Shown here piece by piece: positions 36,134 through 63,774 of a DNA stretch of 64,000 bases (position 1 is the stretch's first letter; the number at the start of each line of letters is the position of its first letter). The notes beneath the pieces were generated by a model. It was not told where the DNA came from, made no database searches, and saw only the letters and a list, made by a program, of their open reading frames with translations. This DNA comes from Micromonospora sp. WMMD980. GTDB taxonomy: Bacteria > Actinomycetota > Actinomycetes > Mycobacteriales > Micromonosporaceae. The DNA lies in contig NZ_JARUBE010000003.1 of assembly GCF_029626035.1 (NCBI RefSeq), positions 5,084,001 through 5,148,000 on the forward strand, in the 5' to 3' direction. The translations under genes were made by a program, and so were the position numbers.

Positions 36134-37164
36134 GCCGCGACACCACGCCCGACCGTCCGCAGCGGCTACCCCGGCACGTTGCGCTGAGCCCAGGGGAAAG
36201 CCCAGAGTCGTTCCTGCGGCGTCTAGCCACCGCCAACCACCTGCGCCCCAGCTACCTGCGCACCTATCTCAGTTCCACGCCGGGAACCGTTGGTGGTCTC
36301 CAGGTCTCACGCCTGGCGGCCGTGACAGGCCGCACGACCGACGAGCTCACCCGGGTGATGCCCGCCCTCCGACCGGCAGCGCCCGGCCCCCCACTGCGCA
36401 CACCGCGGCCAACCGACGCGACGCCCGTCACGCGGGAACCCCACGATCCGGCGGGCCTGCCCTCGGCCCTGCGCCGCGCAGCCGGCGCAGACGAAACCGT
36501 CAACCGACTGAGCAGGCAATTCGCGGTCCCGCGACGCACGATCATCCGAGCGCTAACGAACCAGACCGGGCCCCGCCACCACAACCGCAGCCCATGGAAC
36601 AACCCCGTGCTGAACCACGTCGCCGGCCACCTCGACCACCTCATCGCCCAGAACCCGACGGCGACGATCTGGTCGATCTGGCAGCAGCTGCAAGCCGAGC
36701 AGGCCCTGACGGTCTCCTACTGGACCGTCCGCAACTACGTCAACCGCGCCCGCGCTGACCCCGCCGACACCGCATCCGCCCAATTCCTACTCAGCAGAGC
36801 CGAACTGTTCACCGCGATTCGCGCACACGCAGCCGGCCACGACCTCATCACCGCACTGGCCAGCCAGTTCCTCACCGACCCCGCAGTCGTCGAGCAAGCC
36901 CTCACCGGCCGGGCACCGGAACCAGCCACACCAAAAGCGCAGAGCACCTACAGCAACCCCATCCTGGATCGGCTCCGCCCCCACATCGACCAGATGATCA
37001 CCACCGAACCAGACATCACGATCGTGTCCATCTGGCAGCGCCTCGTCGACGACCACCACGCCGAGACCTCGTATCACACCGTCCGTGACTACGTCTCCCG
37101 CGAACACCGCCAGCACTCCATCGGCAGCCGAACCCGTCAACGACCGAACCCGAACGCTCCCTAA
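36130..37164 (+). CDS. TniQ-like target-selection protein with two IstA-like repeats
   Basis: The 344-residue protein starts with a TniQ signature: LSPGESPESFLRRLATANHL, then RPSYLRTYLS (about 18-48). It has no cysteine, so the zinc finger usual in TniQ/TnsD is missing. The rest holds two similar segments, NNPVLNHVAGHLDHLI ... IWSIWQQLQAE ... SYWTVRNYVNRA (about 157-210) and SNPILDRLRPHIDQMI ... IVSIWQRLVDD ... SYHTVRDYVSRE (about 280-330). They resemble the DNA-binding HTH of IS21 IstA. Each is preceded by an HTH-like 'LSRQFAVPRRTIIRAL' or 'LASQFLTDPAVVEQAL' stretch. It probably chooses the target site by binding DNA. It is the last gene before the right end. Confidence 0.75.
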   Translation: MSRDTTPDRPQRLPRHVALSPGESPESFLRRLATANHLRPSYLRTYLSSTPGTVGGLQVSRLAAVTGRTTDELTRVMPALRPAAPGPPLRTPRPTDATPVTREPHDPAGLPSALRRAAGADETVNRLSRQFAVPRRTIIRALTNQTGPRHHNRSPWNNPVLNHVAGHLDHLIAQNPTATIWSIWQQLQAEQALTVSYWTVRNYVNRARADPADTASAQFLLSRAELFTAIRAHAAGHDLITALASQFLTDPAVVEQALTGRAPEPATPKAQSTYSNPILDRLRPHIDQMITTEPDITIVSIWQRLVDDHHAETSYHTVRDYVSREHRQHSIGSRTRQRPNPNAP

Positions 37165-43210: not shown

Positions 43211-44541
43211 CAGGGCCCCGGCAAAGTCGTCAGGTGATGCCGAGCAGTGCCAGCGGGCGGATGCTGTCGCGGGCGTGATGCCGGTTGGCGGCGGCGATGT
43301 TGGTGACGCCAGCGGTGCGGAGTGCGCCGATCGCGGCGTTGCGTAGAGCGGCCATGACCTCGGGTCCGGTGCCGGTGCGGATCTGGCTGCGGTCCTCGTC
43401 GTAGGTGACGTCGCGGACCCAGTGGACCTTGTTCTCGATCGACCAGTGCTCGCGGGTCCACGCTGCCAGTTGTGCTGGTTTTGCCTGGTGGACGCGGAGG
43501 TCGGTGATGGCGTAGACGGTCTCGGTGGTGAAGCGTTTCGGCTGGTCGAGGCGGCGTCTGCGGCGGCGGATCTGGATGGCTTGGGCGGCGTGCGGGAAGT
43601 CGATGCCGGTGGAGATCGTCAGGATCTTGCAGCTGCGGATCTCGCGGCGGCCGTGTCCGCGGTCGGTGTCGCGGGTGGCGTCGGGGACTGCCCGCCAGGG
43701 CAGTGCGGTGAGCTGGGCGTGCAGGTGGGGTTGGTTGCCTTTGACGGTCAGGATCCAGTGCGCGCCGCGCTCGGCGAGGTAGTCGACATGCTCGCGTTGG
43801 CAGTGCAGGGCGTCGGCGGTGATCACCGTGTCGCGCAGGTCGCTGATCTGGTCGAGCAGCGGCGCGAACCGGGTGATCTCGTTGGTCTTGCCGTCGACGT
43901 CGATGCTGGCCAGGACCACACCGGTGGCCTGGTCGCAGGCGGTCATCACGTGCCGGGCAGGGGTGTCGGTGGTGCGGGAGCCGCGCAGGGTCTTGCCGTC
44001 GACGGCGATCGCCCGGCCGGCCGTTGAGGTGGTGGCGGTGGCCCGGCCGGCGAGCCAGACACTGATCGCCGCGGTCAGTAGCTGCGGGTCCATGGCCTGT
44101 AACAGCCGGCGGATCATCGCCTCCGACGGGCGCCGGTCGGCAGGCATGCCCAGGGCGAGAGCCGTCGTGGCCGGCACGTCGGCGACCCATTCGGCGATCG
44201 CGGCGTACGAGCGGTAGCCGGCGACCACAGCACACACGGCTGCGGTGACCACGACCGTCAGCCGATGCCGGACACCTCGCCGGGCCCGTGGATCAGGCAG
44301 ACCAGCGAGCGCTTCGGGCAGCCCACCAGCGGTTTCGGCAACGGTCAGAGCCGGTGCGCAGGACAGGGACGAGATCAGCGATGATGGCAGCGCGGGCATG
44401 ACTCACTTCGGGCGATCAGCATGGCGTAGAGAACCTTGATGATCTTCTGAGCCGGTCATGCCCGCCTTGCTGCCACCACCAACGGCGCTTCTACCCCAAG
44501 CCTCACAAGTCGGACACCGTTACGACTTTGCCGGGGCCCTG
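43211..44541 (-). mobile_element. ISAs1-family insertion sequence, copy 2 (1331 bp, inverted)
   Basis: Perfect 20-bp inverted repeats identical to copy 1 lie at 43211-43230 and 44522-44541. A 10-bp direct repeat ACCCACATGG flanks them (43201-43210 and 44542-44551). Length and all reading frames equal copy 1, so the copies are recent. Orientation is opposite to copy 1. Confidence 0.95.
43230..44399 (-). CDS. ISAs1-family transposase, copy 2
   Basis: The 389-residue protein is identical to the transposase at 3603-4772, with the same catalytic motifs [21 protein letters not shown] and [10 protein letters not shown]. The stop overlaps the inverted repeat. Identity of the two copies implies recent movement or gene conversion in this genome. 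Confidence 0.95.
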
Positions 44542-47733: not shown

Positions 47734-49476
47734 TCAGAAGCGGAAGCCAAAAAGTCCACCTTCATCAAAGCTGTCGGTGAGCCGTTGTTCGAGGACGTGG
47801 CCGGCCGGATCGAAGCCGCGGCGTACGGCTTTGTCAAGTTCGTCGGAGTTCAGCGTGACGATGTACTGGAGCCCTTCCTGACGACTCACTTCGGCTGCGA
47901 GGGTGAGGGCGCGGGCGAGCTGGCGCTCGTCGACGCCGTCATAGAGGTGGCTGTCGTGGACGAAGAAGTCCGGTGCTCGCCCGCTTCGGTGCGCTAGGAC
48001 GGCGACGGTCAGGTCGAAGCAGAAGATGACCATATTGCCGATGCCGCCGCTGTTGTCGCTCGCGATGTGTGTCTCGATCTTTAGGCTGGTTTCGCCTGGA
48101 CCGATACGGAGGTACGCCTCGCGGTTGGCGCCGTAGAGGGCCTGGGCGTACTGAGCGAACAGGACGACCGCATCGTTGACGATGGGTCGCCGCTCTTCGA
48201 TGTCGGTCTCCATCTCCTGTTGGAGACTGACGCGCTGTTGTTTGATCTCGCGACGGTTCGATTCGAGCGCCTGTGCTGCGTCGAAGCGGTGTCGTAGGGC
48301 TCCGAGTTGTGCCTGTTCCTGGGCGAGGATCTGTTGAAGGGTGGTCAGTGCGTCGAGCGCGCCGCCTTCGTTAAGGGTGCGCAAGGTTGCAGCGAGTCGG
48401 TCACCGAGTTGTTCTCGCTCGGCTTCGCGTTCCTGGAGCCGTGATCTGATCGCCGAGGCCTCTTCGTCCAGGTACTGGCGCCGGTTGCGGACAACGGATC
48501 CGTGGAACGCCCGGACGTCGTCGAAACTTCGGCGCACCTGGTCGCCGAGCACCACGCCGAGCTCTGCGTAGGCCGTTTCGAGGTAAGCGAGATCGGGATC
48601 TATGGTTTCGTCGACGGCCCGTTCCAGGTCGGCGAGGTTGCGCCGGTCGATGACGTCGTCGTTGCGGAGCTGGCGGATTCGCTGGTCGGTCTGGTCGGCT
48701 TGGGCGCGGAGGTTGTCGTACTCCGGAACCACTCGGAAGTTCTCGATCCGTCGTTGAATCTCCGCAACGCGGTGTTCTGCGATGGCGATCTGGCCTCGGA
48801 GCTCTGCGGTCTGACCGATGATTCGTCCGAGAACCGGGTCGGAAGCGGCTTTACGGAGCTGCTTGCTGACGGCTTCGCGGGCCTGTAGCTCGCGGTAGCG
48901 ATCGGCAAGCCGCCAGTCCAGTCCGAGTAGGTATGCCAGCGACGTGGCCGCTTCAGCATTCGCTTGGCGGGCGAAGCTGCGGGTGGCCTCGTTGAAGGCG
49001 TGCGATCCGACTCTCCGCATGAGGAAGCTAAAGAGGCTGCGGCCGGTGATGCCCGGGTGGTCGGCAGGAAGGTTGAAAAGATCCCTTTCGATAAGTGTTT
49101 GCCACTCAGGCAGCGTGACCTGACCGTCGCCGAAATCAAGTTGGTCCGAGCCGACACCCGAAGGCAAGGGCCGTAGGCGGATGGCGCCGGCATTCGCTCC
49201 AGTGCGTTCGACGGTCAGCTCTTCGAGCAGGCCGGGCCAGTCCAGGCTCAGCGCGAACGTTGTCTGCCGAAGCCTCGGGTGAGCCGGTAATGAGTTCTTG
49301 TCTGCGCCGCTGCCCAGCAGGAAGTGCAACAGTTCGATCATGCTGGACTTGCCGGCACTGTTACGGCTGTCGGTCTCGGCCGAAGCGCCGGTGGTATCCG
49401 CGACCAGGATGTTTAGGCCAGGGTGAAAAGTCAGGGCCTTGAAACGTGGATCATCCGCGGTCAAGTGCCGCAGCAT
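47734..49476 (-). CDS. ABC-three-component ATPase (DUF2326-type, SMC-like)
   Basis: The 580-residue SMC/Rad50-like ATPase has Walker A SRNSAGKSSMIELLHFLLGS at about 40-58. A long coiled coil follows from about 215 to 430 (AELRGQIAIAEHRVAEIQRR; ERRPIVNDAVVLF follows). The C-terminal DUF2326 region includes NMVIFCFDLTVAVLAHRSGR and PDFFVHDSHLYDGVDERQLA, standing in for Walker B/D-loop. In ABC-three-component (ABC-3C) systems this ATPase works with a middle component and a CTD protein in biological conflict. ATG 49476 has GGAGGAGG 5 nt upstream. It overlaps the middle component by 26 nt. Confidence 0.88.
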   Translation of the reverse strand: MLRHLTADDPRFKALTFHPGLNILVADTTGASAETDSRNSAGKSSMIELLHFLLGSGADKNSLPAHPRLRQTTFALSLDWPGLLEELTVERTGANAGAIRLRPLPSGVGSDQLDFGDGQVTLPEWQTLIERDLFNLPADHPGITGRSLFSFLMRRVGSHAFNEATRSFARQANAEAATSLAYLLGLDWRLADRYRELQAREAVSKQLRKAASDPVLGRIIGQTAELRGQIAIAEHRVAEIQRRIENFRVVPEYDNLRAQADQTDQRIRQLRNDDVIDRRNLADLERAVDETIDPDLAYLETAYAELGVVLGDQVRRSFDDVRAFHGSVVRNRRQYLDEEASAIRSRLQEREAEREQLGDRLAATLRTLNEGGALDALTTLQQILAQEQAQLGALRHRFDAAQALESNRREIKQQRVSLQQEMETDIEERRPIVNDAVVLFAQYAQALYGANREAYLRIGPGETSLKIETHIASDNSGGIGNMVIFCFDLTVAVLAHRSGRAPDFFVHDSHLYDGVDERQLARALTLAAEVSRQEGLQYIVTLNSDELDKAVRRGFDPAGHVLEQRLTDSFDEGGLFGFRF

Positions 49477-52077: not shown

Positions 52078-53379
52078 ATGGACGCCCGGGGCGAGCCGCT
52101 CTCAGATCCGCTGCGCCACGGCCCGGGTGTGCTGGTCCTGCCGGCGGTAGCGGTGGATGTAGCGGGGCCAGCCTCGCTGCTTGCCTGGGCGGCGCTGCTG
52201 TGCGTGTCTGCGCTGATCGCGACCTCGTTCGCGGCGTTGGGCAGCCACTACCCGGACTCGGGTGGGGTGTCGTCGTTCGTCGGGCGAGCGTTCGGTGATA
52301 GCGCGGCGACGGTCGTGGGGTGGTGGCTCGTGGCGGCGGTGCCCGCGGGTGTGGTCGCGGGAGCGGTCACCGCCGCTGGCTATCTGGGCGCCGTGTTCCA
52401 CGCCACCCGCCCAGCTCTCATCGGCATCGCGGTCAGCGTGCTGGGCGCGGTGTACGGGGCGAACCTGCTGCGGTTGCGCGTGTCGGCCCGGGCCCAGGTC
52501 GTGCTGACCGCCTTAGTGGTGGCGATGCTCGTCATGGTCCTCGTCGTGTCAGCGCCGCACGTGGACCCGGACAACGCCACCCCGTTTGCACCACACGGCC
52601 TGGCCGGTGTCGGCAGCGCCGCCGCAGTCCTGTTCACCTGCGTCTGCGGGTGGGAGGCCACGGCCAATCTGTCCGCCGATTTCACTAGCGCACGGCAGGT
52701 ACGCCGCACGGCCTTGGTGAGCGTCGTGGTCGTCGTCGTTCTCTACGCAGGCTTGGCCGTCTGTACTGTCGGCGTCCTCGGCGCACAGGCCGGCCGCGCC
52801 CCGGCGCCGCTCATGCGGCTACTCGGCTCAACTGAGAGCGCCTGGACGGCCGGCGCGGTCTCCATGACCGCCGTACTGCTCACGGTCGCAGCTAGCGTCA
52901 CCTTCGTCGCAGCCAGCGCGCGGACCGCGTTGTCCGTCGCCCGGCGTCGCCACCCAACTCTACTGATGGCCACGCACCACAGCGCCCTGCAGCGCTCGGT
53001 GACCCGGCAGAGCGCCGCCGCTGCCGTCGTCGCCGCAGCCGTCGCCCTCACGCCGAGCCTGGTGACCGTGGAGACCTTGATGCGCATCTTCGCGGTGCTG
53101 CTGGCATGCGTCACTCTGGCCGGCCTCGCCGCCGCGGTACGGCTCCTCCCGACTGTCCGCCACCGTGGATGCGCCGTTACCGCGGCACTCGCGGTCGGGG
53201 CCGTCACCGTGTTCGCCGGCCTGTTCCTCCTCGCTCCCGCAGCGGTCGCGACAGCAGCGATGCTGGCTCGCCGCAGACGATCGCCTGAACCGTCCTCACC
53301 ACCACTGCAGGAAAAGGGTTCCCGGATTGACGACGCGACCAGTCTCTACGCGGCATCCATGAAAGCACAGATCCGATGA
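52078..53379 (+). CDS. APC-superfamily amino acid permease
   Basis: The 433-residue membrane protein has about 11-12 hydrophobic segments. The first holds the APC signature GPGVLVLPAVAVDVAGPASL. Next come LLCVSALIATSFAALGSHYP and the conserved DSGGVSSFVGRAFGDSAATV. The usual leader of TM1 ahead of GPGVLVLP (commonly about 10 more hydrophobic residues) is missing, so the N-terminus may be truncated or altered. ATG 52078 is the first start close to the conserved region, with no strong ribosome site. The stop overlaps the MFS gene (ATGA), so the pair are cotranslated, perhaps for amino acid or metabolite export/import. Confidence 0.78.
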   Translation: MDARGEPLSDPLRHGPGVLVLPAVAVDVAGPASLLAWAALLCVSALIATSFAALGSHYPDSGGVSSFVGRAFGDSAATVVGWWLVAAVPAGVVAGAVTAAGYLGAVFHATRPALIGIAVSVLGAVYGANLLRLRVSARAQVVLTALVVAMLVMVLVVSAPHVDPDNATPFAPHGLAGVGSAAAVLFTCVCGWEATANLSADFTSARQVRRTALVSVVVVVVLYAGLAVCTVGVLGAQAGRAPAPLMRLLGSTESAWTAGAVSMTAVLLTVAASVTFVAASARTALSVARRRHPTLLMATHHSALQRSVTRQSAAAAVVAAAVALTPSLVTVETLMRIFAVLLACVTLAGLAAAVRLLPTVRHRGCAVTAALAVGAVTVFAGLFLLAPAAVATAAMLARRRRSPEPSSPPLQEKGSRIDDATSLYAASMKAQIR

Positions 53380-54698
53380 CGACCGCGACCTCCACGTCAC
53401 TAGCGCTACCTACGGCGTGGCCCCGAGCAGCGGGTTGGCGGCTGGCGGCCCTTTACGGGCCGGGCGTCTACGGCGTTACCGCCGCAGCAGTCGCTCTCCC
53501 CGCGGCTGCCGGCCCGCTGCGCAGCGGTGGGGCGGGAATCGCCTGGATCTTGACCGCCTACGCCGCTGGCATGGGCGTCGGAGCCGTCACTGCGGGCCGC
53601 CTTATTGACCTGAAGGGTGATCGTGATGTTCTTGTTGTCACGGTTTTGATCCTCATCGCCGGCGCGATGCTCTGCCTGATGGCGCCGAGCCTGCCTGTTC
53701 TCGTCGCCGGACGCGTCGTGCTGGCAATCGGCTCAGGCGCAGCTAAAGCAATCGCCCTGGCCGGCATCGCCCGGTTGCCGCCGGCGAGGCGTCCAGCCGG
53801 GCTAACTGCCTTCGGAGTCTGTCTCGCAATGTTCTGCGCCACCGCCCCCCTCGCGGGTGCTGTAGCTGCACATCTGAGCTGGCGAGCACCACTAATCCTG
53901 CCTGTACTCTCCATCGCCGTCGCCCCGGTGGGCTGGTCACTGACGACCAGACTGGCCACGCCAAGACCGATCGATTGGAAGGGAGCTGGTCTGTGTGCCG
54001 TCACTGCTGCTGGACTGCTATTGGCCGTGCAAACTCTCTCTTATCAAACACACGCGGTACCTGCTACTGCTGCCGCTCTGACCGCAGCCACCGGCATCGC
54101 CCTCGCCGCGCGCTCCCGGCACAGCCAACTGCATCAGTTCGTCCCGGGCGAAGTCATACGCGCGGGCTGGTTCTGGTGGGCAGCCGCCACGGGTGCCGGA
54201 GCTTACGCCGGCTTGTTCGCCATCTGCTACGCCGGCCCGTCCCTACTCCACCAGCACGGCTTTACCACGATGGGCATAGGCGTACTCCTGCTGCCCAGTG
54301 CCGCGATCGCCGCAGGCTTGACCCGCACCGTAGGTCGCCTCGCCCGCCGTGTGTCAGCTCGACGGCTGCTAACAACTACGAGCGTCCTACTTGCCGTCGC
54401 ACTCAGTTGCACCGCTGCCGCACCCCATCCCATCACCATCGTCTGCTGCGCAGCCGTCGCATTCACGGCGTCAGCTTCCGCACAGATGCTGCTCAACGTG
54501 CATGTAAGCGGGCACAGCCACGACGCGGCACGCAGCGCTGCGGTCGGGCTGCTCGCGCTCACCCTCTTCCTCGGTGGCGGCTGCGGCACCGCAATCCTTG
54601 TGGCCATTTGGCAACTGCATGGGCTCGTAGCAGCAATGGCCGCCGTAGCGGGCCTGGCGCTCATCGGCGCCGTTGCCGCCCGTCAGCTACGTGACTGA
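53376..54698 (+). CDS. MFS transporter
   Basis: The 440-residue protein has 12 or more hydrophobic segments. The inter-TM2/3 loop YAAGMGVGAVTAGRLIDLKG carries the MFS G-x-x-x-D-R/K-type motif in degenerate form (GRLIDLKGDR). The TM4 region GSGAAKAIALAGIARLPPAR fits a drug-efflux-like MFS protein. ATG 53376 overlaps the APC permease stop by 4 nt. The substrate cannot be inferred. Confidence 0.85.
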   Translation: MTTATSTSLALPTAWPRAAGWRLAALYGPGVYGVTAAAVALPAAAGPLRSGGAGIAWILTAYAAGMGVGAVTAGRLIDLKGDRDVLVVTVLILIAGAMLCLMAPSLPVLVAGRVVLAIGSGAAKAIALAGIARLPPARRPAGLTAFGVCLAMFCATAPLAGAVAAHLSWRAPLILPVLSIAVAPVGWSLTTRLATPRPIDWKGAGLCAVTAAGLLLAVQTLSYQTHAVPATAAALTAATGIALAARSRHSQLHQFVPGEVIRAGWFWWAAATGAGAYAGLFAICYAGPSLLHQHGFTTMGIGVLLLPSAAIAAGLTRTVGRLARRVSARRLLTTTSVLLAVALSCTAAAPHPITIVCCAAVAFTASASAQMLLNVHVSGHSHDAARSAAVGLLALTLFLGGGCGTAILVAIWQLHGLVAAMAAVAGLALIGAVAARQLRD

Positions 54699-55530: not shown

Positions 55531-55691
55531 ACGGCGGTCATGTGCGCCACCACCAGGGGCACGGTGGTGCCGGTGCCGGTGCCGGTGCCGGTGCCGGTGC
55601 CGTCGCCGGAGGACAGGTCGACGTCGAGCCGGGAACCCACCTCCGAACGGGCGAGCACGAGGACCGGCCCCGGCGGCATCGGCTGACTCAC
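55531..55691 (-). pseudogene. Truncated gene coupled to the XRE/ImmA regulator
   Basis: GTG 55691 overlaps the regulator's stop as GTGA, so a downstream gene was translated in step with it. The first 30 residues read MSQPMPPGPVLVLARSEVGS then RLDVDLSSGDG. A Gly-Thr run encoded by six GGTGCC units (55566-55601) follows, and then sequence runs into IS5 debris near 55530. The remaining product is a stub. Its original identity is unknown. Confidence 0.55.
55566..55601. repeat. (GGTGCC)6 hexanucleotide repeat
   Basis: Six perfect tandem GGTGCC units lie inside the truncated gene. On the - strand they encode alternating Gly-Thr. Unit-number change would keep the frame. Confidence 0.9.
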
Positions 55692-56788
55692 GGAGCCGTA
55701 TCCAGGTCATCCTCCTCGGGCAGATCCGCATCCGTCAGCTCGCCGTACATCAGCTCGATCGCTCTTGCTCTGGTGATTCGGCTGGCTCGCCATGCCTCGA
55801 TGACCGCCTTCGCATAGCCGGGCGATACGCGCACCGAGGCAAGATCCGGCTGCGGCGCCCAGGCCAGGGCTTCCATGAACTCCGCCCGGGTGGGCCGACG
55901 GAAGCTCCAGGCCTGGCGTGTCGCGGCATCGATCAGCCCGGCCCGCTCAGCCTGTCGCAGCGCCAACACCCAGGAGGTGCGGTAGCGAGCTGCGTAGGAA
56001 ATCAGGCGTTCCCGACTCGCGTGCCCACCGCGCCGGGCCCCGGTCATCGCATCGACCGGTAGCAGCAACTCCGCGGCGAATGCGTCGATCACCCCTTCGC
56101 GTTCCGCGCGAGACGTGCTGACTCCAAGGTCACTAGAATATTCGTCGCCTACAACCAGATGGCCCAGCTCATGTGCGACGGTGGCTCGCCGGCTAGCAGG
56201 ATCGGCTTCCGTGCTCACCACCGCGACGGCCAGATCTCCCTCGACGAGGGACGCGCCATCGCCCGGCAGGTCGGTCACCAGCACCCACTGACCTGTGCGC
56301 TCGCAGAGATCCATCACGCTGCCGACCGGCTCACTGCCGAGACCGATCTGCTGTCGTAGCCACCGGGCCGCTTGCCTCGCGTCAGCCTCGGATGCCACCG
56401 TACCGGGGTATCGTAGTAGCGGAGCTGTCCGCAACGCGCCGACGGCTACGAGTTGCTGCACGTTACGCAGCCACTCGACCAGGGCGATCTCCATTCGCTC
56501 CGAGGATCGTGCGGCCGTCGTGTCGGTCTCTTCGGTCAACATCGCGGCCCGTCGGGACAGCACCGCCGGCCGCGGCTCGATCAGGTACTCCATCGACACC
56601 CTGAGCGCACGGGACAGACGTGCCAACTCCACCCCGTCGAGACGCCTGCTGCCCGCCTCAACCTTGGCCAGCATGGTTCGGTCGAGCCCCACGCGGTCGG
56701 CGAGATCCTGCTGCGACATGCCCACTGACAGACGCGCCTGTCGCACCTGCTCTCCGATGCGGCGCCAGTCCTGCTGCTCCCCGGCCAT
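55688..56788 (-). CDS. XRE-family regulator with ImmA/IrrE metallopeptidase domain
   Basis: The 366-residue protein has an N-terminal XRE helix-turn-helix (about 10-65: IGEQVRQARLSVGMSQQDLA, then GLDRTMLAKVEAGSRRLDGV). A C-terminal ImmA/IrrE-type zinc peptidase carries H-E-x-x-H in RRATVAHELGHLVVG (about 207-221) and a downstream Glu in EREGVIDAFAAELLLPVDAM. Such fusions control mobile elements or toxin-antitoxin-like modules by cleaving or sensing a partner. ATG 56788 lies 2 bp from a perfect palindrome (TGCGATAATCGCA), a likely autoregulatory operator on a very short leader. Its coupled partner gene (GTG 55691) is truncated. Confidence 0.85.
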   Translation of the reverse strand: MAGEQQDWRRIGEQVRQARLSVGMSQQDLADRVGLDRTMLAKVEAGSRRLDGVELARLSRALRVSMEYLIEPRPAVLSRRAAMLTEETDTTAARSSERMEIALVEWLRNVQQLVAVGALRTAPLLRYPGTVASEADARQAARWLRQQIGLGSEPVGSVMDLCERTGQWVLVTDLPGDGASLVEGDLAVAVVSTEADPASRRATVAHELGHLVVGDEYSSDLGVSTSRAEREGVIDAFAAELLLPVDAMTGARRGGHASRERLISYAARYRTSWVLALRQAERAGLIDAATRQAWSFRRPTRAEFMEALAWAPQPDLASVRVSPGYAKAVIEAWRASRITRARAIELMYGELTDADLPEEDDLDTAP

Positions 56789-56790
56789 GG

Positions 56791-56803
56791 TGCGATAATC
56801 GCA
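56791..56803. promoter_or_regulatory. Palindromic operator at the XRE/ImmA start
   Basis: TGCGATAATCGCA is a perfect 6-1-6 palindrome ending 2 bp before the ATG. On the - strand it contains GATTAT, a fair -10-like hexamer, which would give a nearly leaderless transcript repressed by its own product. That is inference from position. Confidence 0.6.
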
Positions 56804-56911
56804 CAACTTGAGCACGGAATGGGTCAACGCAAAGTCTGAGATTGCGACCAGGGGCAGGGGCCACACGCGGACAGCCACCACGCCGCCAGTTCGGGTGATG
56901 AGCTCAGCGCC

Positions 56912-56951
56912 CACCGGGGCCCCCGCCTAGCGCTAGGCGGGGGCCCCGGTG
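56912..56951 (-). terminator. Perfect 40-bp palindrome after the secreted-protein gene
   Basis: Each 20-nt arm (56912-56931 and 56932-56951) is the exact complement of the other, giving a stem with no required loop and extreme GC content. It lies 31 bp after the stop of the - strand gene at 56983. It probably ends the NOS-TDO operon transcript. Confidence 0.85.
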
Positions 56952-56982
56952 AGGGCGTGACCTTCATTTTGAGCTCGCCGGC

Positions 56983-57450
56983 CTACCAATCGCCTACGGC
57001 GGTGTAGCCGTAGTACTCGCCCATGTCGATCCGGATCCAGATGTAGAACCTGGTGCCGTCGGCGACATTGGTGGCGATGTTGCGCCATTGGCCGGCCGGG
57101 ACGCGGGTCCAGCCGTTGCAGGTTGCGCGTCCGTAGAAGTTGACGCAGGCGTCGAAGGGACCGAAGTCGTCGTTGTCTCCGGTGTTGCGGACCTGGATGT
57201 CGCGGCACTGGCTGGTGGTGCGGTAGTAGCTGGGGTACGACGGGTAGCTGAAGACCTCCGGTCCGTTGTACTGCTGGTAATAGTCGGCGGCGCCGAGTTT
57301 CGCGCTGTACGGGGCGGTGCGGCAGCCGGCGGCCTGCGCGGGAGCGTTGACGGCGACGAGGCCGGCGGTGACTGTCGTTAGGGTGAGCGTGGCCGCCGCA
57401 AGAAGCCGGGTTAGACGTCGCCGTGGCGGTGTGGTGGTGCGTGCGGACAT
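56983..57450 (-). CDS. Small secreted protein with four cysteines
   Basis: The 155-residue protein has a typical signal peptide: basic n-region PPRRRLTRL, hydrophobic LAAATLTLTTVTAGLVAV and an APAQAAG cleavage site at about residue 41. The mature part is aromatic-rich (ADYYQQYNGPEVFSYPSYPS) with Cys at about 43, 82, 101 and 110, likely two disulfides. It ends YGYTAVGDW. There is no enzyme motif. ATG 57450 has a strong AGGGAGG site 5 nt upstream and lies 40 nt inside the end of the NOS gene. It is therefore the last gene of the operon and just before the terminator. It may be an exported product or a substrate of the cluster's oxidases; that is speculative. Confidence 0.8.
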   Translation of the reverse strand: MSARTTTPPRRRLTRLLAAATLTLTTVTAGLVAVNAPAQAAGCRTAPYSAKLGAADYYQQYNGPEVFSYPSYPSYYRTTSQCRDIQVRNTGDNDDFGPFDACVNFYGRATCNGWTRVPAGQWRNIATNVADGTRFYIWIRIDMGEYYGYTAVGDW

Positions 57451-58664
57451 GTGTCCTCCCTGGGTTGGTGACGGGTGGCGTCAGTGGCCGGGGGGACGTC
57501 GGCGTGCTGACGTGGTGAGGGTCGGTGGCCGGGCGGCGCCGCGGCTGTGAGGGTGACGCTGTACGGGTCTGGACGTAGGGCTGGGCTGGGCTGGCGGCGG
57601 TCGTAGTAGCGGCTCCAGGAAGGGTCCTGGGGAGTCATGGGGTAGGAGTTGAGCCAGCTCCAATCGCCCGTGACGGCACGGCCAGCGGCCTCTTCGTGCT
57701 CGACGAAATGGGCGAAGGAGCGGCTTTCCCGGTGGTGGTCGGTGACGGAGATTCCTGCGACGTCGAAGCTGTGAAGTACGGCCTCGTAGAGGGTCAGCAG
57801 TGCCTTGTCCGCGCGTAGCCGGTCGCGCTCGGGCAGGCCGAGGCCAGCGACGATGACCGGAAGTTGGTGGTAGCGCTGCCGGTCGGCGAGATTGCGGGTG
57901 GCGATCTCGCTGGCCATGAATGTGCCGCTGAACGGGGCAGGGAATCTCAGCCCGCCGAGGTGCAGCGTCATGTTGCTGATCACAGGTATGGCGGGCCAGC
58001 GCAGTCCGAGGTCGCCGATCCAGGGGTGGTCGGGGTGGATGATTGGTACTTCCCGGATCCGATCGTGTGCCGAGGGCAGCAGGTGGAGTCGGCCGTCGGC
58101 AGTGGCGGCAATCCAGGGCAGGAGGTCGAATCCACTGCGGCGGGTGGGACCAGGCCAGCCGAGGCGGGTGGCCAGTGCGGTCAGGGGGCCGTTGGCGGCG
58201 TCGCCGATGGTTCCGACGTCGTCGGTCCAAGCCGCATAACGGGCCAGTTGCGGGCTGACGATGCGCCAAGGCGGCGCGGTTGTGCTGGTGGCGGGTGCGA
58301 GAACGGTGAGCACCGGGCGGACATGGCCGCCGCCGGTTGCCTCGTCGAGGTGCCCGGCCAGCGCGCCGCGGAGGCCCTCGAGAGTGATGATGTGGCGGTG
58401 GTCGCGGACGGTGAGGCTGGACCACCGGGACCGGCCGATGCAACGGTCGGAGTTGCGCCAGGCCACCTGCGCTCCGAAGTTCAGCTCGTCACGTGTCGGC
58501 TGCCAGGTGCCGGTAGCCGCGATGTCGGCGCGCACGGCCCGCCATCGATCAACGAACCCGGTCTCGGCGGTCTCGTCATGTCGCTGTCGGAGAAAGGCAT
58601 GCGCCTCAAGAAGTAGAAGGTCCACGCCGACATCAGCGGCAGCAATCCGTCCCGCATTGGTCAT
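57411..58664 (-). CDS. nos: Nitric oxide synthase oxygenase
   Basis: The 417-residue protein is a bacterial NOS oxygenase domain without reductase. The heme-ligand signature is NFGAQVAWRNSDRCIGRSRW (Cys at about 76). Substrate-site sequence FSGTFMASEIATRNLADRQR carries the Glu that binds L-arginine. The conserved C-terminal GDWSWLNSYPMTPQDPSW matches NOS pterin-site sequence, where G-D-W-x-W-x-x-P-P is usual. It oxidises L-arginine to citrulline and NO using external reductases. ATG 58664 has GGAGG 6-7 nt upstream and overlaps the stop of the dioxygenase-like gene (ATGA). The last 20 or so residues are low-complexity and overlap the next gene. In known clusters NOS supplies NO for tryptophan nitration; here no P450 is present. 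Confidence 0.93.
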   Translation of the reverse strand: MTNAGRIAAADVGVDLLLLEAHAFLRQRHDETAETGFVDRWRAVRADIAATGTWQPTRDELNFGAQVAWRNSDRCIGRSRWSSLTVRDHRHIITLEGLRGALAGHLDEATGGGHVRPVLTVLAPATSTTAPPWRIVSPQLARYAAWTDDVGTIGDAANGPLTALATRLGWPGPTRRSGFDLLPWIAATADGRLHLLPSAHDRIREVPIIHPDHPWIGDLGLRWPAIPVISNMTLHLGGLRFPAPFSGTFMASEIATRNLADRQRYHQLPVIVAGLGLPERDRLRADKALLTLYEAVLHSFDVAGISVTDHHRESRSFAHFVEHEEAAGRAVTGDWSWLNSYPMTPQDPSWSRYYDRRQPSPALRPDPYSVTLTAAAPPGHRPSPRQHADVPPATDATRHQPREDTCPHAPPHRHGDV

Positions 58665-59896
58665 CGAAAACCTCCGCGAGGGCTGGAACCGGGGTCCTCG
58701 AATACGGCGCTGTCGCGGCCGTGTAGGAGGTAAGGGGTGCCCGGTGTGGCACCAGTGCCGCGCTGCCGCGTACCGAGCATCCGAACCGCAAGGCGGTAGT
58801 GGGTACGCCGCCACTGGTGCACCGCGCCCGTGAACTGGCGCATCCCGTCGGCGAGGACCGGCGCTTCGGCCAGGACGTTCCGGTCGACCTGCAGGGCAGT
58901 GAGGGCGTCGACGACGCTGACCTGCCCGTCGTGGATGCGGGCGCCCACGTCCGGCACAGATCGGTATGCCGGCGAGAGCAGACGCTCCGCCTCGGGGATT
59001 CGGCACAGCGATTCGACCAGTTTGTAGGCGCGGGACTGGATCGCGCTGGCGCCGTCGGTATGGATCCGGAAGCGGTGAAAGGCGTCGGGCTGCATGGTCG
59101 CCAGCAAGGACCATAAAGGCGCGGTCTCGCGTAGCAGGGTGGCGGCCAGGGTTAGCCGCACCCCCGCCGAGGTCAGTCGGTCGTGTTGCACGGCGCTGAT
59201 GGCGGCGGTGAGGTCGACGGACAGTAGCCCGAAGGTCACCTCGAATGCTTGCAGGGTGCGGATGAACAGCAACTCGTCGTGAACCGTCGACACCGGCAGC
59301 AGGCTCGTGCGCAGCGTCAGCCCCTCGGCGGGGGTGCGGTCGATGCAGACCATCGTGACGAGCCGGCGCGCCAGCGCCACCGGGTCGTCGACGTCTCGGA
59401 TCGGGACGCTGAGCCGGCGTAGGGCGGCAGCGGCAGCCCGCACAGCGTGGTGCAGCCGTTTACGCGCCAAGAGCGGCGAAGGAGGAAGATCACGCGTTGG
59501 CTGGGGTGGACCTTCGAGGGCACGCAGCTCGGCGGCGACAAGATCACTGATTAGTAGGACGTGGAGCCGGTCCCGGCGGGCCAGCAACCGGTCCGCCGGT
59601 TCCGTGGCCGTGTCTGGGTCCGGCACGGCCAGTAGGCGCAGGGCCAGGTAGGTGCGGTAGTCGAAGCGGTGGTCTGTTCTGTCAAGCGCAGTGTCCAGGA
59701 ACGTGGCCAGGAAGTCTGTGGGCCCGGCGTACTCGGGCAGTCGTTCTCGGGTGCGACTGAGCAGCGAGGTCCACTCCTGCGGCACGAAGCGCTTGCCGTG
59801 GTGGTGATAGGCGTCGACCACTCGGTCGTAAGGGAAGTGGGCGGCGCGGGGCGTGCCCTGCGCAAGCCAGTGCCGAAGCGGCGCCGGATCCATCAT
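58661..59896 (-). CDS. Tryptophan dioxygenase-like protein (second)
   Basis: The 411-residue protein is a TDO-superfamily homologue with a long N-terminal region. From about 205 it reads VSTVHDELLFIRTLQAFEVT (distal-side helix), FHRFRIHTDGASAIQSRAYK and HQWRRTHYRLAVRMLGTRQR, with the His likely binding heme. GTGATPGTPYLL follows as the substrate loop. It is diverged from classical tryptophan 2,3-dioxygenases and longer than them, so it may oxidise a different indole. It sits between the PLP enzyme and NOS, overlapping both by 4 nt. Confidence 0.78.
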   Translation of the reverse strand: MMDPAPLRHWLAQGTPRAAHFPYDRVVDAYHHHGKRFVPQEWTSLLSRTRERLPEYAGPTDFLATFLDTALDRTDHRFDYRTYLALRLLAVPDPDTATEPADRLLARRDRLHVLLISDLVAAELRALEGPPQPTRDLPPSPLLARKRLHHAVRAAAAALRRLSVPIRDVDDPVALARRLVTMVCIDRTPAEGLTLRTSLLPVSTVHDELLFIRTLQAFEVTFGLLSVDLTAAISAVQHDRLTSAGVRLTLAATLLRETAPLWSLLATMQPDAFHRFRIHTDGASAIQSRAYKLVESLCRIPEAERLLSPAYRSVPDVGARIHDGQVSVVDALTALQVDRNVLAEAPVLADGMRQFTGAVHQWRRTHYRLAVRMLGTRQRGTGATPGTPYLLHGRDSAVFEDPGSSPRGGFR

Positions 59897-61047
59897 CGCC
59901 CTCCGCTCTGGTTACGGTGGTGACGCCGGTAGCTGACGACCGACGCGCACGCTGCGTCGATGTCGTCGTCAGTGGTGTAGGCGTGCGTGGCCAGTCGCAG
60001 CACCCGACCACGTGGGGCGGCGAGAATTCCACGGTCACCGAGCCAGGCTGCGATCGCGTCGGCGTCGGGGTCGAACAGGGCCACGTGCGCGCCTTGCGCG
60101 TCAGGGTGCGCCGCCGTTCGTAGGACCTCGCCGTGGGCGGACAGTCGTCGGGTGGCTGCGGTGATCAGTTGCTGGGTGTGGCGGCGGACCTGCCAGAGGT
60201 CGAGGCCGTTGACCAGGGTCAGGCCGGCGACAGCGGCGTACATCGCCGCTGCGGCTGGGGTGCCGGTCTCGTAGCGGCGGGCGTGCGTGGGAAAGTCCAC
60301 GACGGTGGCCCGGAAGTCGAAGGGCCGTACGCGGCCGAGCCAGCCGGTCAACGTCGGTGGCGGACCATCCGGATCGCGGACGTAGAGGAATGCCAGTCCG
60401 GGGAGTCCCAGGAGGTACTTGCCGGTGCCAGCGACGAGGTAGTCGCAGCGCAGCCCATCGACGGTCAGGGGCATCACGCCGGCCGCCTGGTAGGCGTCGA
60501 CGAAGACCGTCGCACCCACGCTGTGGGCGGCGTCGGCGATGCGCGCGACATTGAGGTGAACCGCGTCCCGGTAGGTGACCGCGGGAACCGACACCATGCC
60601 GATGCGGGGGGTGATCTGCGGCAGGTAGTCGTCCGTCTGCGCGACACCGTCGCAGGAACCGACCCACCGCACCCGGGCCTGCAGCCGGTTCAGCCAGGTG
60701 TGCGCGATGCCGGGGAACTCGGCAGTCGAGGCGAGCAACTCTCGGCGGCGCCGCCACCGGCGGCTGCTTGCCACCTGATAGGCCGCGACGCTGGCGTTGG
60801 GCAGGATCGCGATCTGGTCGGGGTGGGCGCCGATGAGCTGCGCGAACAATCGCCGAGCCTGGTCGGCCTGCTCTTCGCATGCCCGCCAGAAACCCGGTCG
60901 GGCCAGATCATCGAACATCCGGCAGAGAGCTTGCTCGACCTCGATGGTGCGAGGCGCAATGCTGCATGCCGCCAGGTGCGACGCCCCGTCGGCGGTAATT
61001 AGCCGCTGGCGCAGCGCTGCGGAGCTGGTCAGGGTTGCCGGCTTCAT
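59893..61047 (-). CDS. Kynureninase-like class V PLP-dependent enzyme
   Basis: The 384-residue fold-type-I PLP enzyme has class V aminotransferase/cysteine-desulfurase/kynureninase features. They are ILPNASVAAYQVASSRRW (phosphate loop region, about 76-93), ATVFVDAYQAAGVMPLTVDG (PLP Asp and Gln, about 178-197) and CDYLVAGTGKYLLGLPGLAF (PLP Lys in GTGKYLLG, about 200-219). Next to a tryptophan dioxygenase the natural reading is kynurenine cleavage or transamination, but the substrate cannot be fixed from sequence. ATG 61047 overlaps the TDO stop and its own stop overlaps the next ATG (both ATGA). Confidence 0.82.
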   Translation of the reverse strand: MKPATLTSSAALRQRLITADGASHLAACSIAPRTIEVEQALCRMFDDLARPGFWRACEEQADQARRLFAQLIGAHPDQIAILPNASVAAYQVASSRRWRRRRELLASTAEFPGIAHTWLNRLQARVRWVGSCDGVAQTDDYLPQITPRIGMVSVPAVTYRDAVHLNVARIADAAHSVGATVFVDAYQAAGVMPLTVDGLRCDYLVAGTGKYLLGLPGLAFLYVRDPDGPPPTLTGWLGRVRPFDFRATVVDFPTHARRYETGTPAAAAMYAAVAGLTLVNGLDLWQVRRHTQQLITAATRRLSAHGEVLRTAAHPDAQGAHVALFDPDADAIAAWLGDRGILAAPRGRVLRLATHAYTTDDDIDAACASVVSYRRHHRNQSGGR

Positions 61048-61763
61048 TGCGGCTGCCGCTGCGGGCAGGAGTCGGCGGGCGCCTGCGTCAGCGTCGACCG
61101 TGCTTCCCATAGGGTCGGGAATCGCCGGTGGCTGATCAGGGCGGGCAGGCTGTCGATCGGGGTGTGGCGGGTGCCCAGCACGCCCTGGCCGATGACGCGG
61201 GTGGCGATGCTGTAGTGCTCGGTACGCCAGAGCGCGATCCGCTCGTCCAAGTCCACCAGCGCTTCGGCCAGCCGGTACAGCGGATCCCACGCCGCTGCCT
61301 GGTACACCTCGACCGTGGTGAGGCGACGCGCGGACAGCAGGCGGCTGAACGCGATGTCCAGTTCCGTCGTGGCCGTGCGCAGTAGCCGCCACCCGGGGGA
61401 CTCAAATCCCGATCCGGTGCCCAATGCGGGTCTGATCGTCGCGAAGTGCGCGGGCGGCAGGGACCGCAGGATGCGCAGATGTTCGGTGATCAGCCGCAGC
61501 GCCTCCGACGCGCGGTCGATGAGCAGCTCCGCCGCGCTGACCTGGCCGGCGCCGAGGTGCGCCAGTGCACGGGACAGGTGAGATCGGGTGAGCTTGAGCC
61601 ACAGCTCGCTGCTTTGGTGCACGATCTGGAACAGCAGCTCATCCGGGTGGACCCACTGCGCCGGCTCCTTCTGCAACGCCAGCAGCTCATCGGTACGCAT
61701 GTAGCGGGCGTAATCAGTGGGAGCGGCACCCGGCAGCACCGCGTCCAGCGGTGATACGGACAT
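61044..61763 (-). CDS. Tryptophan 2,3-dioxygenase
   Basis: The 239-residue protein aligns by motif with bacterial TDO. DYARYMRTDELLALQKEPAQ opens it, and FQIVHQSSELWLKLTRSHLS holds the distal His. HFATIRPALGTGSGFESPGW is the substrate-carboxylate Arg and loop, and LWRTEHYSIATRVIG holds the heme-binding His. It is shorter than most TDOs (about 280) and the GTGGT loop reads GVLGTRHTPID. It cleaves tryptophan to N-formylkynurenine in the known family. It starts 42 bp after the lipoprotein gene and is coupled to the PLP enzyme by ATGA. Confidence 0.88.
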   Translation of the reverse strand: MSVSPLDAVLPGAAPTDYARYMRTDELLALQKEPAQWVHPDELLFQIVHQSSELWLKLTRSHLSRALAHLGAGQVSAAELLIDRASEALRLITEHLRILRSLPPAHFATIRPALGTGSGFESPGWRLLRTATTELDIAFSRLLSARRLTTVEVYQAAAWDPLYRLAEALVDLDERIALWRTEHYSIATRVIGQGVLGTRHTPIDSLPALISHRRFPTLWEARSTLTQAPADSCPQRQPQ

Positions 61764-61805
61764 AGTCGGGCCTCCAATGGTGTTAGTAGGAAAGGATGGC
61801 TTCGC

Positions 61806-62489
61806 TCATGCGCGCAACGCGTCTAGCGCGGATGCCGCGGCAGCAGTCAGCCCGGCGTTCAGGCCTTGCGGTGGATCGGCACCGGGCCGCAGCGGCACCG
61901 CGCTCACCGTGAGGTACAGGTTGGCGTCGTAGGTCACGACCGTGACGCCGGTCAACGCATCGGTGTAGGTGTAGGCGGCGGATCCCAAACCCGCTATGTC
62001 GACGACTGGGCCGGCGCTTTGCTGCACCTGCCGCAACCCCTCGTACATCACCTGGCCCGAGTCCGTGTCCCCGAGATCGGCGCGCACCGTCACGACCAGA
62101 CCGTCAGGTGCCCGCCCGAGCGTGATCGAGCAGGCCACATTGGCACGGCCCGTTCCGGCGGGGACGTCCCGCCGGTCATCGTTCGGTGCCACGCGGGCGG
62201 CGAGGTCGCGGACGTCCAGGCGAGCGCACAGTGAGCTGACCGACCGGTAGGTTGATCCAGGCCGAGCCTTCGTGGGCTGACCACCGGCGGACGGCGCGAC
62301 TCCGGGCGCGGATGACGACCTGCCGGGGGTTGAGGATGGCCCACTTCCGTCGGCCCCGGCGCATCCTGTGGCGAGGGCGCCGACCAGGCCGAGAGCCGCC
62401 AGCCTTAGCACAAGCGGCCGGCCATTCGGCGCGCTCTGCGGAAGTGACGGTGCTATCTGTTGGTGTGCGATCATGCTCTGAACAGGCAT
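61806..62489 (-). CDS. DUF3558-like lipoprotein
   Basis: The 227-residue protein has a signal and lipobox, LRLAALGLVGALATGCAGAD (Cys at about 43), then a Ser/Pro-rich linker. A DUF3558-like domain from about 80 reads SVSSLCARLDVRDLAARVAP then ACSITLGRAPDGLVVTVRAD, with the paired Cys common in the family. It would be anchored outside the membrane. ATG 62489 has GGAG about 8 nt upstream. Located 42 bp upstream of TDO on the same strand, it may be the first gene of that operon. Confidence 0.78.
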   Translation of the reverse strand: MPVQSMIAHQQIAPSLPQSAPNGRPLVLRLAALGLVGALATGCAGADGSGPSSTPGRSSSAPGVAPSAGGQPTKARPGSTYRSVSSLCARLDVRDLAARVAPNDDRRDVPAGTGRANVACSITLGRAPDGLVVTVRADLGDTDSGQVMYEGLRQVQQSAGPVVDIAGLGSAAYTYTDALTGVTVVTYDANLYLTVSAVPLRPGADPPQGLNAGLTAAAASALDALRA

Positions 62490-62847: not shown

Positions 62848-63774
62848 TTACCTGCTGCCGGCTGGCGCAGGGGTGGCGGTAGTTGGCTCGGCTGGCTGCG
62901 TCTGGCGGGTGTGCCAGGCGGTCTCGTATTCGTTCGGGCTGAGGTAGCCCAGCTCGCGTTGGATGCGGCGGGTGTTGTACCAGCCGTCGATGTAGGCGAA
63001 GATCGCGTTCTCGGCCTCGTCGCGGGTCCGCCATGAGGTGCGGTAGACGAGTTCGATCTTCAGCGTGGACCAGAAGTTCTCCATCAGGGCGTTGTCGTAG
63101 GAGTCGCCGACGGAGCCCATCGAGGGCAGGATCCCGTTGTCTTGTAAGCGTTCGGAGAAGCGGAACGACGTGTAGTTCGACCCGCGGTCCGAGTGGTGGA
63201 TCAACTGGCCGTCGCGGACATCGCGGGACCAGATGCCGTATTCGAGGGCGGCGAGGATCAGGTCGGTGTCGCAGCGGTCAGACGTCTTCCACCCCACGAT
63301 CCGGCGGGAGAAAACGTCGCGGACGGCGGCGAGCCAGAACACGCCCTCGCCGCACGGGATGCGGGTGGCGTCGGCGACCCAGAGCCGGTTCGGCCCATTG
63401 GCGGTGAACTGCCGGTTCACCAGATCCGGCGCCGGCGTGTGCCGCGGGTCCTGCTTCGTGGAGCCGCCGCGCCAGCCTCGACGCAGGAACGCCCCCTGCC
63501 AGCCGTGGGCGGCCATCAGCCGCTCTACCCGTTTGCGGCCCACGTAGATGCCGTCGCGGCGTAGCTGCCGGTGGACCCGGTCCGCGCCGTAGGTGCGCCC
63601 GGAGGTCTCCCAGATCTCGTGGATGTTGGAGATCAGCCCCAGGTCGACCACGTTCCGGTCACAGGGCAGCTCGGCCTGCTTGACCCACGCGTAGTAGGTC
63701 GAGGCGCCGATGTTGAGGACCCGTAGCAGGAGCGCGACCGCGAACTGGTCACGGTGTTCGTGGATGAACCTCAT
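62848..63774 (-). CDS. IS3-family transposase orfB
   Basis: The 308-residue integrase-core protein has a HTH_21-like region (SGRTYGADRVHRQLRRDGIY). The DDE triad sits in LWVADATRIPCGEGVF (first Asp), LIHHSDRGSNYTSFRF (second Asp) and DSYDNALMENFWSTLKIELV (Glu). It differs from the IS3 protein at 25404-26468, so it is a separate element. ATG 63774 overlaps the orfA stop by 4 nt (ATGA). The left end of the element lies just below 62848, but its inverted repeat is not resolved. Confidence 0.9.
   Translation of the reverse strand: MRFIHEHRDQFAVALLLRVLNIGASTYYAWVKQAELPCDRNVVDLGLISNIHEIWETSGRTYGADRVHRQLRRDGIYVGRKRVERLMAAHGWQGAFLRRGWRGGSTKQDPRHTPAPDLVNRQFTANGPNRLWVADATRIPCGEGVFWLAAVRDVFSRRIVGWKTSDRCDTDLILAALEYGIWSRDVRDGQLIHHSDRGSNYTSFRFSERLQDNGILPSMGSVGDSYDNALMENFWSTLKIELVYRTSWRTRDEAENAIFAYIDGWYNTRRIQRELGYLSPNEYETAWHTRQTQPAEPTTATPAPAGSR

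Follow-up and report, generated by a model that had tools for sequence, protein, structure and literature searches.

Gene content and organization of the operon

The window analyzed here, a stretch of 64,000 nt from Micromonospora sp. WMMD980, carries a compact operon of six genes encoding a lipoprotein, a short tryptophan dioxygenase (TDO)-like heme protein (TDO1), a pyridoxal phosphate (PLP)-dependent enzyme, a longer TDO-like protein (TDO2), a nitric oxide synthase (NOS) oxygenase and a small secreted protein (Table 1). All six lie on the minus strand and span positions 62489 to 56983. The TDO1/PLP, PLP/TDO2 and TDO2/NOS gene pairs overlap by 4 nt each (ATGA), and the secreted-protein gene begins 40 nt inside nos. 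A preliminary description of the locus, made from the sequence alone, had reported six co-directional genes with these overlaps, and had identified two TDO-family proteins, a kynureninase-like PLP enzyme and a NOS; the layout was borne out, and Pfam matches support the identities. The description had further remarked on a missing P450, and indeed none was detected within the window, the nearest of 21 P450 places in the host genome lying ~1.8 Mb away. The operon, at C3:5.14 Mb, contains the only NOS of this genome.

The same gene order recurs in other Micromonospora, and nonsynonymous divergence (dN) is lower than synonymous divergence (dS) between the window and its relative L203 (0.12-0.19 vs 0.38-0.61 in the five genes compared, with TDO1 covering 121 codons only and the lipoprotein excluded), which together indicate that the operon is not a chance arrangement. 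A GC-rich hairpin downstream of the last gene, overlapping the first codons of the next gene's GTG start, folded better than all 200 shuffled sequences; no T-run terminator was listed at this hairpin, which is a probable operon end of the kind without a T-run. The search for sigma-70-type promoters, not informative for an actinomycete, found none at the operon.

Table 1. Features of the operon and its surroundings (positions in the window). The Pfam and NCBIfam queries for NOS included one extra codon ahead of the NOS start.
Feature	Position	Strand	Evidence
Lipoprotein	61806..62489	-	Lipobox LATGC by eye; weak DUF3558 likeness (16.5 bits, cut-off 34.1; Pfam)
TDO1, compact TDO/MarE-like His-ligated heme protein, 239 aa	61044..61763	-	PF03301, 83.2 bits
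PLP enzyme, aminotransferase class V, kynureninase-like, 384 aa	59893..61047	-	Aminotran_5 PF00266, 94.9 bits
TDO2, long TDO-like protein, 411 aa	58661..59896	-	PF03301, 56.3 bits
NOS oxygenase, 417 aa, remodelled arginine pocket	57411..58664	-	NO_synthase PF02898, 325.9 bits
Small secreted all-beta protein, 155 aa	56983..57450	-	Sequence relatives, structure model
GC-rich hairpin, 20-pair stem, after last operon gene	56910..56953	-	Folding z-score -4.4
MFS exporter, opposite strand, probable partner	53376..54698	+	Homologues adjoin tdo2 in relatives

The TDO-like proteins and the PLP enzyme

TDO1 and TDO2 both score above the Trp_dioxygenase PF03301 cut-off (34.9 bits) and far below that of the TDO equivalog model TIGR03036 (390.7 bits, compared with 116.1 for TDO1 and 74.8 for TDO2). 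Among PDB chains, TDO1 matched XcTDO with 89 bits and MarE with 42 bits over residues 24-226. We take the distal histidine to be equivalent to His55 of XcTDO, and the MarE residues are presumed to follow the TDO numbering. In MarE, His55 is reported to contact the indole nitrogen and Arg118 the carboxylate (PMC11904535). The distal His49 and axial His183 of TDO1 are kept in all 67 aligned rows, and Arg111 in 45 of them (Gln in 20, Lys in 2). In TDO2, the axial His366 and Arg277 are retained in 80/80 rows, the distal histidine is replaced by Leu215 in the same 80, and ~120 residues separate the YxxYL and HDE motifs; its AlphaFold2 model (pLDDT 89.2) matches TDO structures. The constancy of the distal-histidine loss suggests a special, fixed role for TDO2.

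The PLP enzyme has the marks of class V, namely the PF00266 fold family and a Schiff-base lysine (Lys210, present in 59/59 rows). Its best PDB match was the kynureninase 1qz9 (71.9 bits), its KYNU_C score of 24.9 bits fell just under the cut-off of 27, and the kynureninase model TIGR01814 (cut-off 246.4 bits) was not among its 19 NCBIfam matches at E <= 1. The other kynureninase of the host scores 395 bits against TIGR01814, above the cut-off; it is encoded at a second site far from the operon (C3:82962-85021), where a TDO-family gene directly adjoins it. Since the host holds this separate pair, housekeeping kynurenine catabolism was ruled out as the role of the operon.

Distribution of the core cassette

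The best 80 of 141 confirmed TDO2 relatives were examined with flanks of up to 10 kb per side, some contigs being shorter; the AT-rich locus L106 was included in the six-frame counts and is missing from the gene-cluster comparison, the residue rows and the TDO2 tree. Of 81 loci (window included), 70 have a co-directional TDO1 within 3 kb of TDO2, and the other 11 have TDO2 with no adjoining TDO1. Of 80 loci, 59 have a relative of the PLP enzyme, arranged TDO1-PLP-TDO2 in 39 and TDO1-TDO2-PLP in 20, and only 7 have NOS in the fetched flanks. On a Streptomyces plasmid (L216), a TDO1-TDO2 pair with a 4-nt overlap is embedded in a non-ribosomal peptide synthetase (NRPS) cluster, and the 25 kb inspected there include no PLP enzyme. 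These pairing counts and the NRPS-cluster pair identify TDO1 plus TDO2 as the most constant unit. Homologous loci without the PLP enzyme or without NOS (see below), which the preliminary description had named as evidence against its reading, thus exist. On the basis of this pairing we infer that TDO1 and TDO2 could act as one complex.

Three arrangements, with labels of our own, were recognized around the core. Type I, from Streptomyces and others, includes genes for an FAD monooxygenase, a class IV aminotransferase, a formamidase-like cyclase, a methyltransferase, an FMN reductase and an ATP-grasp protein; type II, from Micromonospora and Hamadaea, mostly carries a methyltransferase of the PF00891 kind; and type III is the arrangement of the window operon. 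With the type I genes in Streptomyces and inside the NRPS cluster, the core cassette sits in biosynthetic-looking surroundings. No paper naming the product of the Streptomyces (type I) cluster was found in the open-access literature searched, and the TDO1/TDO2 pairing is apparently undescribed.

In L063, L066, L076 and L216, TDO1-TDO2 pairs stand near long genes of one family, annotated in L216 as amino acid adenylation proteins. These pairs may supply an unusual tryptophan-derived residue.

Association of NOS with the cassette

We searched 160 Micromonospora genomes for the type III operon, defined by TDO2 of at least 52% identity (the next match had 48%). Counts from this search refer to the matches listed, and they are not additive with those of the named loci above because the two sets overlap (L032 and L203, for example, are the same contig). 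The operon was found in 15 genomes, nine of which have a NOS adjoining TDO2, with one copy (G328) frameshifted. The other six (G310, G354, G212, G248, G332 and G321) lack NOS at the locus, and in three of them (G354, G212 and G321) the whole genome is devoid of NOS matches. NOS is thus accessory, and its role as an indispensable core component was ruled out by these homologous operons. Support for the type III TDO2 clade is high (100/99), and members with and without NOS intermingle in it; this pattern would fit repeated loss of NOS, the tree giving no direction.

A linkage of NOS to the cassette is nevertheless evident. Among the listed matches, the 160 genomes hold 44 NOS genes, ten of them no more than 5 kb from a TDO2; each of the other 34 is separated from TDO2 by 77 kb or more or sits on a different contig. 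These distances were measured against 65 TDO2 places (E <= 1e-50), and the 44 exclude one match of 23 bits (G364:C134) as well as the second fragment of the frameshifted nos of G328. The tenth linked NOS belongs to G299, inferred to be M. nigra, where NOS lies on one strand and is followed by a divergent TDO1-PLP-TDO2-MFS array in which TDO2 and MFS overlap by 4 nt. On an M. zamorensis plasmid, NOS, a flavohaemoglobin gene, a hypothetical gene, TDO1, PLP, TDO2 and MFS all run in one direction. The TDO2 proteins of M. nigra and M. zamorensis are placed far from type III in the TDO2 tree, whereas the NOS proteins of all three form one clade (SH-aLRT 99; quick tree without bootstrap, from which P0134, P0135, P0142, P0204 and P0215-P0218 were dropped beforehand). 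One NOS clade with scattered TDO2 partners is as expected if NOS joined such cassettes more than once. This operon-type clade adjoins TDO cassettes in 11/11 contexts read, two of them with the remote TDO2; the count leaves out the sister proteins P0143, P0145, P0146, P0148-P0150, P0152, P0153 and P0202 as well as further type III NOS proteins. No TDO cassette was found in 13 regions around other NOS genes (some short, L259 being 4.5 kb) or in L210-L212, and no NOS in the flanks of Salinispora vitiensis L089, the nearest TDO2 relative of M. nigra. The earlier idea of a coupled unit with NOS therefore stands in part: the operon is genuine and its link to NOS recurs at distant cassettes, but six of 15 Micromonospora operons lack the enzyme, and it is absent from the fetched flanks (up to 10 kb) of 73 of 80 TDO2 loci.

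Beside the NOS-TDO locus of the M. zamorensis plasmid (L215:1-7251) are genes for GTP cyclohydrolase I, a phosphoribosyltransferase, a radical SAM protein and a SAICAR-synthase-like protein, a set that we take to resemble a modified-nucleoside cluster.

Accessory genes

Lipoprotein homologues precede TDO1 in seven of eight NOS-bearing relatives, the eighth (L203) running off its contig. At the M. nigra locus, the corresponding match (31%) has no Pfam match and no signal sequence at the start used. The MFS gene of the window, outside the six-gene span, probably belongs to the system, given that M. nigra and M. zamorensis each have a homologue (33-39%) overlapping or following tdo2. Its best NCBIfam match, BagJ/FevB, scored 181.6 bits against a cut-off of 800, so that it is not a member of that family.

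A continuous SDR-GNAT fusion follows the secreted-protein gene in four NOS-bearing loci (L037, L038, L040 and L041, the same as L207, L209, L205 and L208). At the M. nigra locus the two halves have counterparts as individual genes, an SDR (58-63%) at one end and a GNAT (45-59%) at the other. At the threshold used, the SDR part alone was found in L206, which has NOS, and in L200, a NOS-less type III locus.

A possible route from tryptophan

We propose that the locus is a specialized-metabolite operon that would convert tryptophan, with NOS providing an optional nitric oxide (NO) or N-oxygenation step, and estimate the probability of this reading at about one half. In its favour are the conservation of the core without NOS, the biosynthetic-looking clusters around it, the separate TDO-kynureninase pair of the host, the recurring NOS link, and the SDR and GNAT genes shared by NOS-bearing type III loci and M. 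nigra. TDO1, which keeps its distal histidine, would oxygenate the indole ring of tryptophan. TDO2, with an axial histidine, a putative carboxylate-holding arginine and no distal histidine, could be an obligate partner of TDO1 or carry out a second oxygenation. The PLP enzyme would then act on the kynurenine-type product, most simply by side-chain cleavage to an anthranilate-type aryl amine, to which NOS might optionally deliver NO or another oxidized nitrogen, giving a nitro, nitroso or N-N product for export by the MFS protein. By known organic reactions, NO-derived species attacking an ortho-amino ketone or an anthranilate-type amine would give diazotized, cinnoline- or triazine-type products. 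While the genes, their conservation and their links were observed directly, each of these chemical steps is a prediction.

Several observations weigh against this proposal. NOS is absent from six of the 15 type III operons, and several NOS genes scored as unlinked are close to the end of a contig, so that a neighbouring TDO2 might have escaped notice. Grouping the TDO2 proteins of M. nigra and M. zamorensis with type III was rejected only at the borderline (AU p 0.0433), the group having been named after the tree was seen. Beside the M. zamorensis locus there is another cluster, of nucleotide type, in which NO might equally be used. The Gln at position 111 in 20/67 TDO1 rows means that substrates may differ between clusters. 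Finally, SDR relatives also occur beside the NOS-less cassettes L072 (42%) and L097 (34%) and in the NOS-less L200, and neither SDR nor GNAT was found beside the window operon, the best match in the genome being a GNAT-like half (48%) 1.7 Mb away.

If the proposal holds, NO-using biosynthesis would reach beyond NOS-P450 pairs, and the pairing of two TDO-like heme proteins, widespread and apparently undescribed, would come to light. The split between nine operons with and six without NOS inside one genus offers a natural experiment on the contribution of NOS, and the remodelled arginine pocket makes a substrate change in a bacterial NOS directly testable.

The arginine pocket and the role of NOS

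The NOS of the operon has the marks of a NOS oxygenase, with PF02898 above its cut-off and, in the 23 rows of the operon group, the heme cysteine and the pterin Trp457 each kept in 22, with one gap each. Its substrate pocket departs from the canonical trio: GWYMGTEIG is changed to GTFMASEIA and KWY to RWP, so that Trp366 becomes Thr, Tyr367 Phe and Tyr341 Pro (numbering of inducible NOS, iNOS). Tyr341 is presumably a pocket residue, and the individual arginine-binding roles of these residues, including the binding of the guanidinium by Glu371, are assumed here. Trp366, Tyr367, Glu371 and Gln257 are named as active-pocket residues of iNOS in an inhibitor-docking study (PMC3472740). Among 98 NOS relatives including the query (P0215-P0218 being omitted from the residue counts), the operon group has Pro341 in 23/23 rows, Thr, Ala, Val or Phe in place of Trp366 in 23/23, and Phe at 367 in 20 (Tyr in 2, Ser in 1). 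This non-canonical pocket makes arginine-derived NO uncertain, and on sequence grounds it cannot be taken for granted.

The enzyme might accordingly have abandoned L-arginine, its pocket taking an arylamine or amino acid made by the TDO and PLP proteins and N-oxygenating it directly. The change appears stepwise, as the 11 rows of the sister group have all lost Trp366 and all kept Tyr367, and the operon group retains the heme cysteine and Trp457. On the other hand, the presumed guanidinium binder Glu371 is kept in 23/23 rows and Gln257 in 22 with one gap; moreover, the other 60 rows keep Tyr367 in 56 (Phe in 3), Trp366 in only 34 and Tyr341 in only 21, so that these positions tolerate change and neither Tyr341 nor Trp366 strictly defines the family. 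As judged from the alignment, it is the combination of Pro341 and Phe367 that sets the operon group apart, the single substitutions not being unique to it. We consider a complete loss of arginine use unlikely. Similarly doubtful is the boldest form of the proposal, in which a NOS freed from its arginine role, a composite TDO1/TDO2 heme enzyme acting as a two-component oxygenase and the kynureninase-like enzyme would N-oxygenate or nitrosate a kynurenine- or anthranilate-type amine with no P450, yielding a nitroso, nitro or N-N aromatic such as a cinnoline or benzotriazinone. The route to nitrated or nitrosated kynurenine or anthranilate products suggested in the preliminary description is, in this light, favoured by the operon and the recurring NOS link and weakened by the optional NOS and its altered pocket.

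A separate NOS clade, marked by the motif GHYLGDEIG, adjoins a flavohaemoglobin-like gene in all three regions read (L210, L211 and L257), possibly as a NOS-reductase or NOS-NO-dioxygenase pair. This clade, the flavohaemoglobin between NOS and the TDO cassette of M. zamorensis, and the binding of NO by heme dioxygenases would also suit a model in which NO serves in signalling, in protection or in regulating the heme oxygenases and contributes no nitrogen to the product. However, TDO cassettes were seen linked to just one NOS clade, and the 34 remaining NOS genes listed for the genus are not near TDO2. Such a role has a low probability in our estimation, comparable to that of the abandonment of arginine.

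NOS could instead be a passenger under loss, as its absence from part of the type III operons, the frameshifted copy (L035 and L202, the same contig) and changes at conserved sites in P0133, P0135 and P0142 might indicate. Against this, dN is below dS in all four NOS pairs compared (window vs L203, 0.154 vs 0.548), and the clade recurs at distant cassettes; we consider a passenger still less probable than the two preceding alternatives.

The secreted protein has 26 relatives besides itself (E <= 0.001), the 18 named ones being from Micromonospora (16), Plantactinospora (1) and Lentzea (1). Its model is an all-beta fold with most of the mature part above pLDDT 90, and the structure had no PDB match at E <= 0.001. 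That the enzymes nitrate or cleave Trp or Tyr of this protein, also put forward in the preliminary description, is very improbable. In favour, the window gene shares 40 nt with nos, and the protein persists in L200 and L201, which have no NOS. Against this, the protein is absent from the NOS-less L198, L199, L213 and L214, from most cassettes and from the M. nigra locus, its relatives are nearly confined to Micromonospora, and its alignment with P0247, a small protein encoded beside nos of M. zamorensis, is confined to the signal-peptide region but for a 7-residue match at chance level. No observation points to it as a substrate of the enzymes.

Other features of the window

Just upstream of the operon, an IS3-like transposase (62848-63774; rve, HTH_21) lies between the lipoprotein gene and a PF04672 methyltransferase relative; a PF04672 methyltransferase stands upstream of the type III operon in several relatives. 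Directly downstream, on the same strand, is an XRE-family regulator with a Peptidase_M78 domain (55688-56914). Farther away are TniA/TniB/TniQ-like transposition genes (33099-37164; Mu-transposase C-terminal domain, TniB, and a TniQ match just under the cut-off) and a full-length match (479.6 bits) to the candidate defence model PDC-M68B together with ABC-3C C-terminal domain 10 (47734-49476). Two open reading frames of equal length, 3774-4772 (+) and 43230-44228 (-), share their first 45 residues and are perhaps copies of one insertion sequence.

Comparison with known systems

The TDO-PLP-TDO-NOS set was not found in the open-access literature searched, most subscription papers being outside the search. 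NOS-guided genome mining has recovered NOS-P450 pairs and others (PMC10831120); the text of that paper does not contain the words dioxygenase, kynuren-, TDO or aminotransferase.

The tryptophan-converting operon shares enzyme families with the kynurenine pathway (TDO and kynureninase) and the logic of a conversion of tryptophan to anthranilate. Unlike that pathway, its TDO-like proteins score far under the equivalog cut-off, the kynureninase model is absent from the listed matches of its PLP enzyme, and the host holds a separate pair. MarE, a monooxygenase forming 2-oxindole from tryptophan (PMC11904535), is likewise compact and, like TDO1, keeps the distal and axial histidines; TDO1 differs in having a long TDO-like partner and usually a PLP enzyme, and in scoring higher with XcTDO than with MarE.

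The nitration pairs TxtD/TxtE and RufN/RufO (IlaM/IlaN) resemble the window operon in that a NOS works around an aromatic amino acid as part of a biosynthetic gene set (PMC10831120). In contrast to these pairs, the window operon has no P450, its heme partners are TDO-like, its NOS is optional and the arginine pocket is altered. The 8-azaguanine ptn cluster concerns another substrate class, and there are no purine genes among the six of the operon. Nevertheless, NO from its NOS PtnF supplies one nitrogen of a ring with an N-N bond, by a step suggested to be non-enzymatic (PMC11705231, PMC10831120), and the resulting triazole of 8-azaguanine provides a precedent for an NO-derived ring nitrogen (PMC11705231) of the kind that the NOS-bearing operons might produce from a tryptophan-derived amine.

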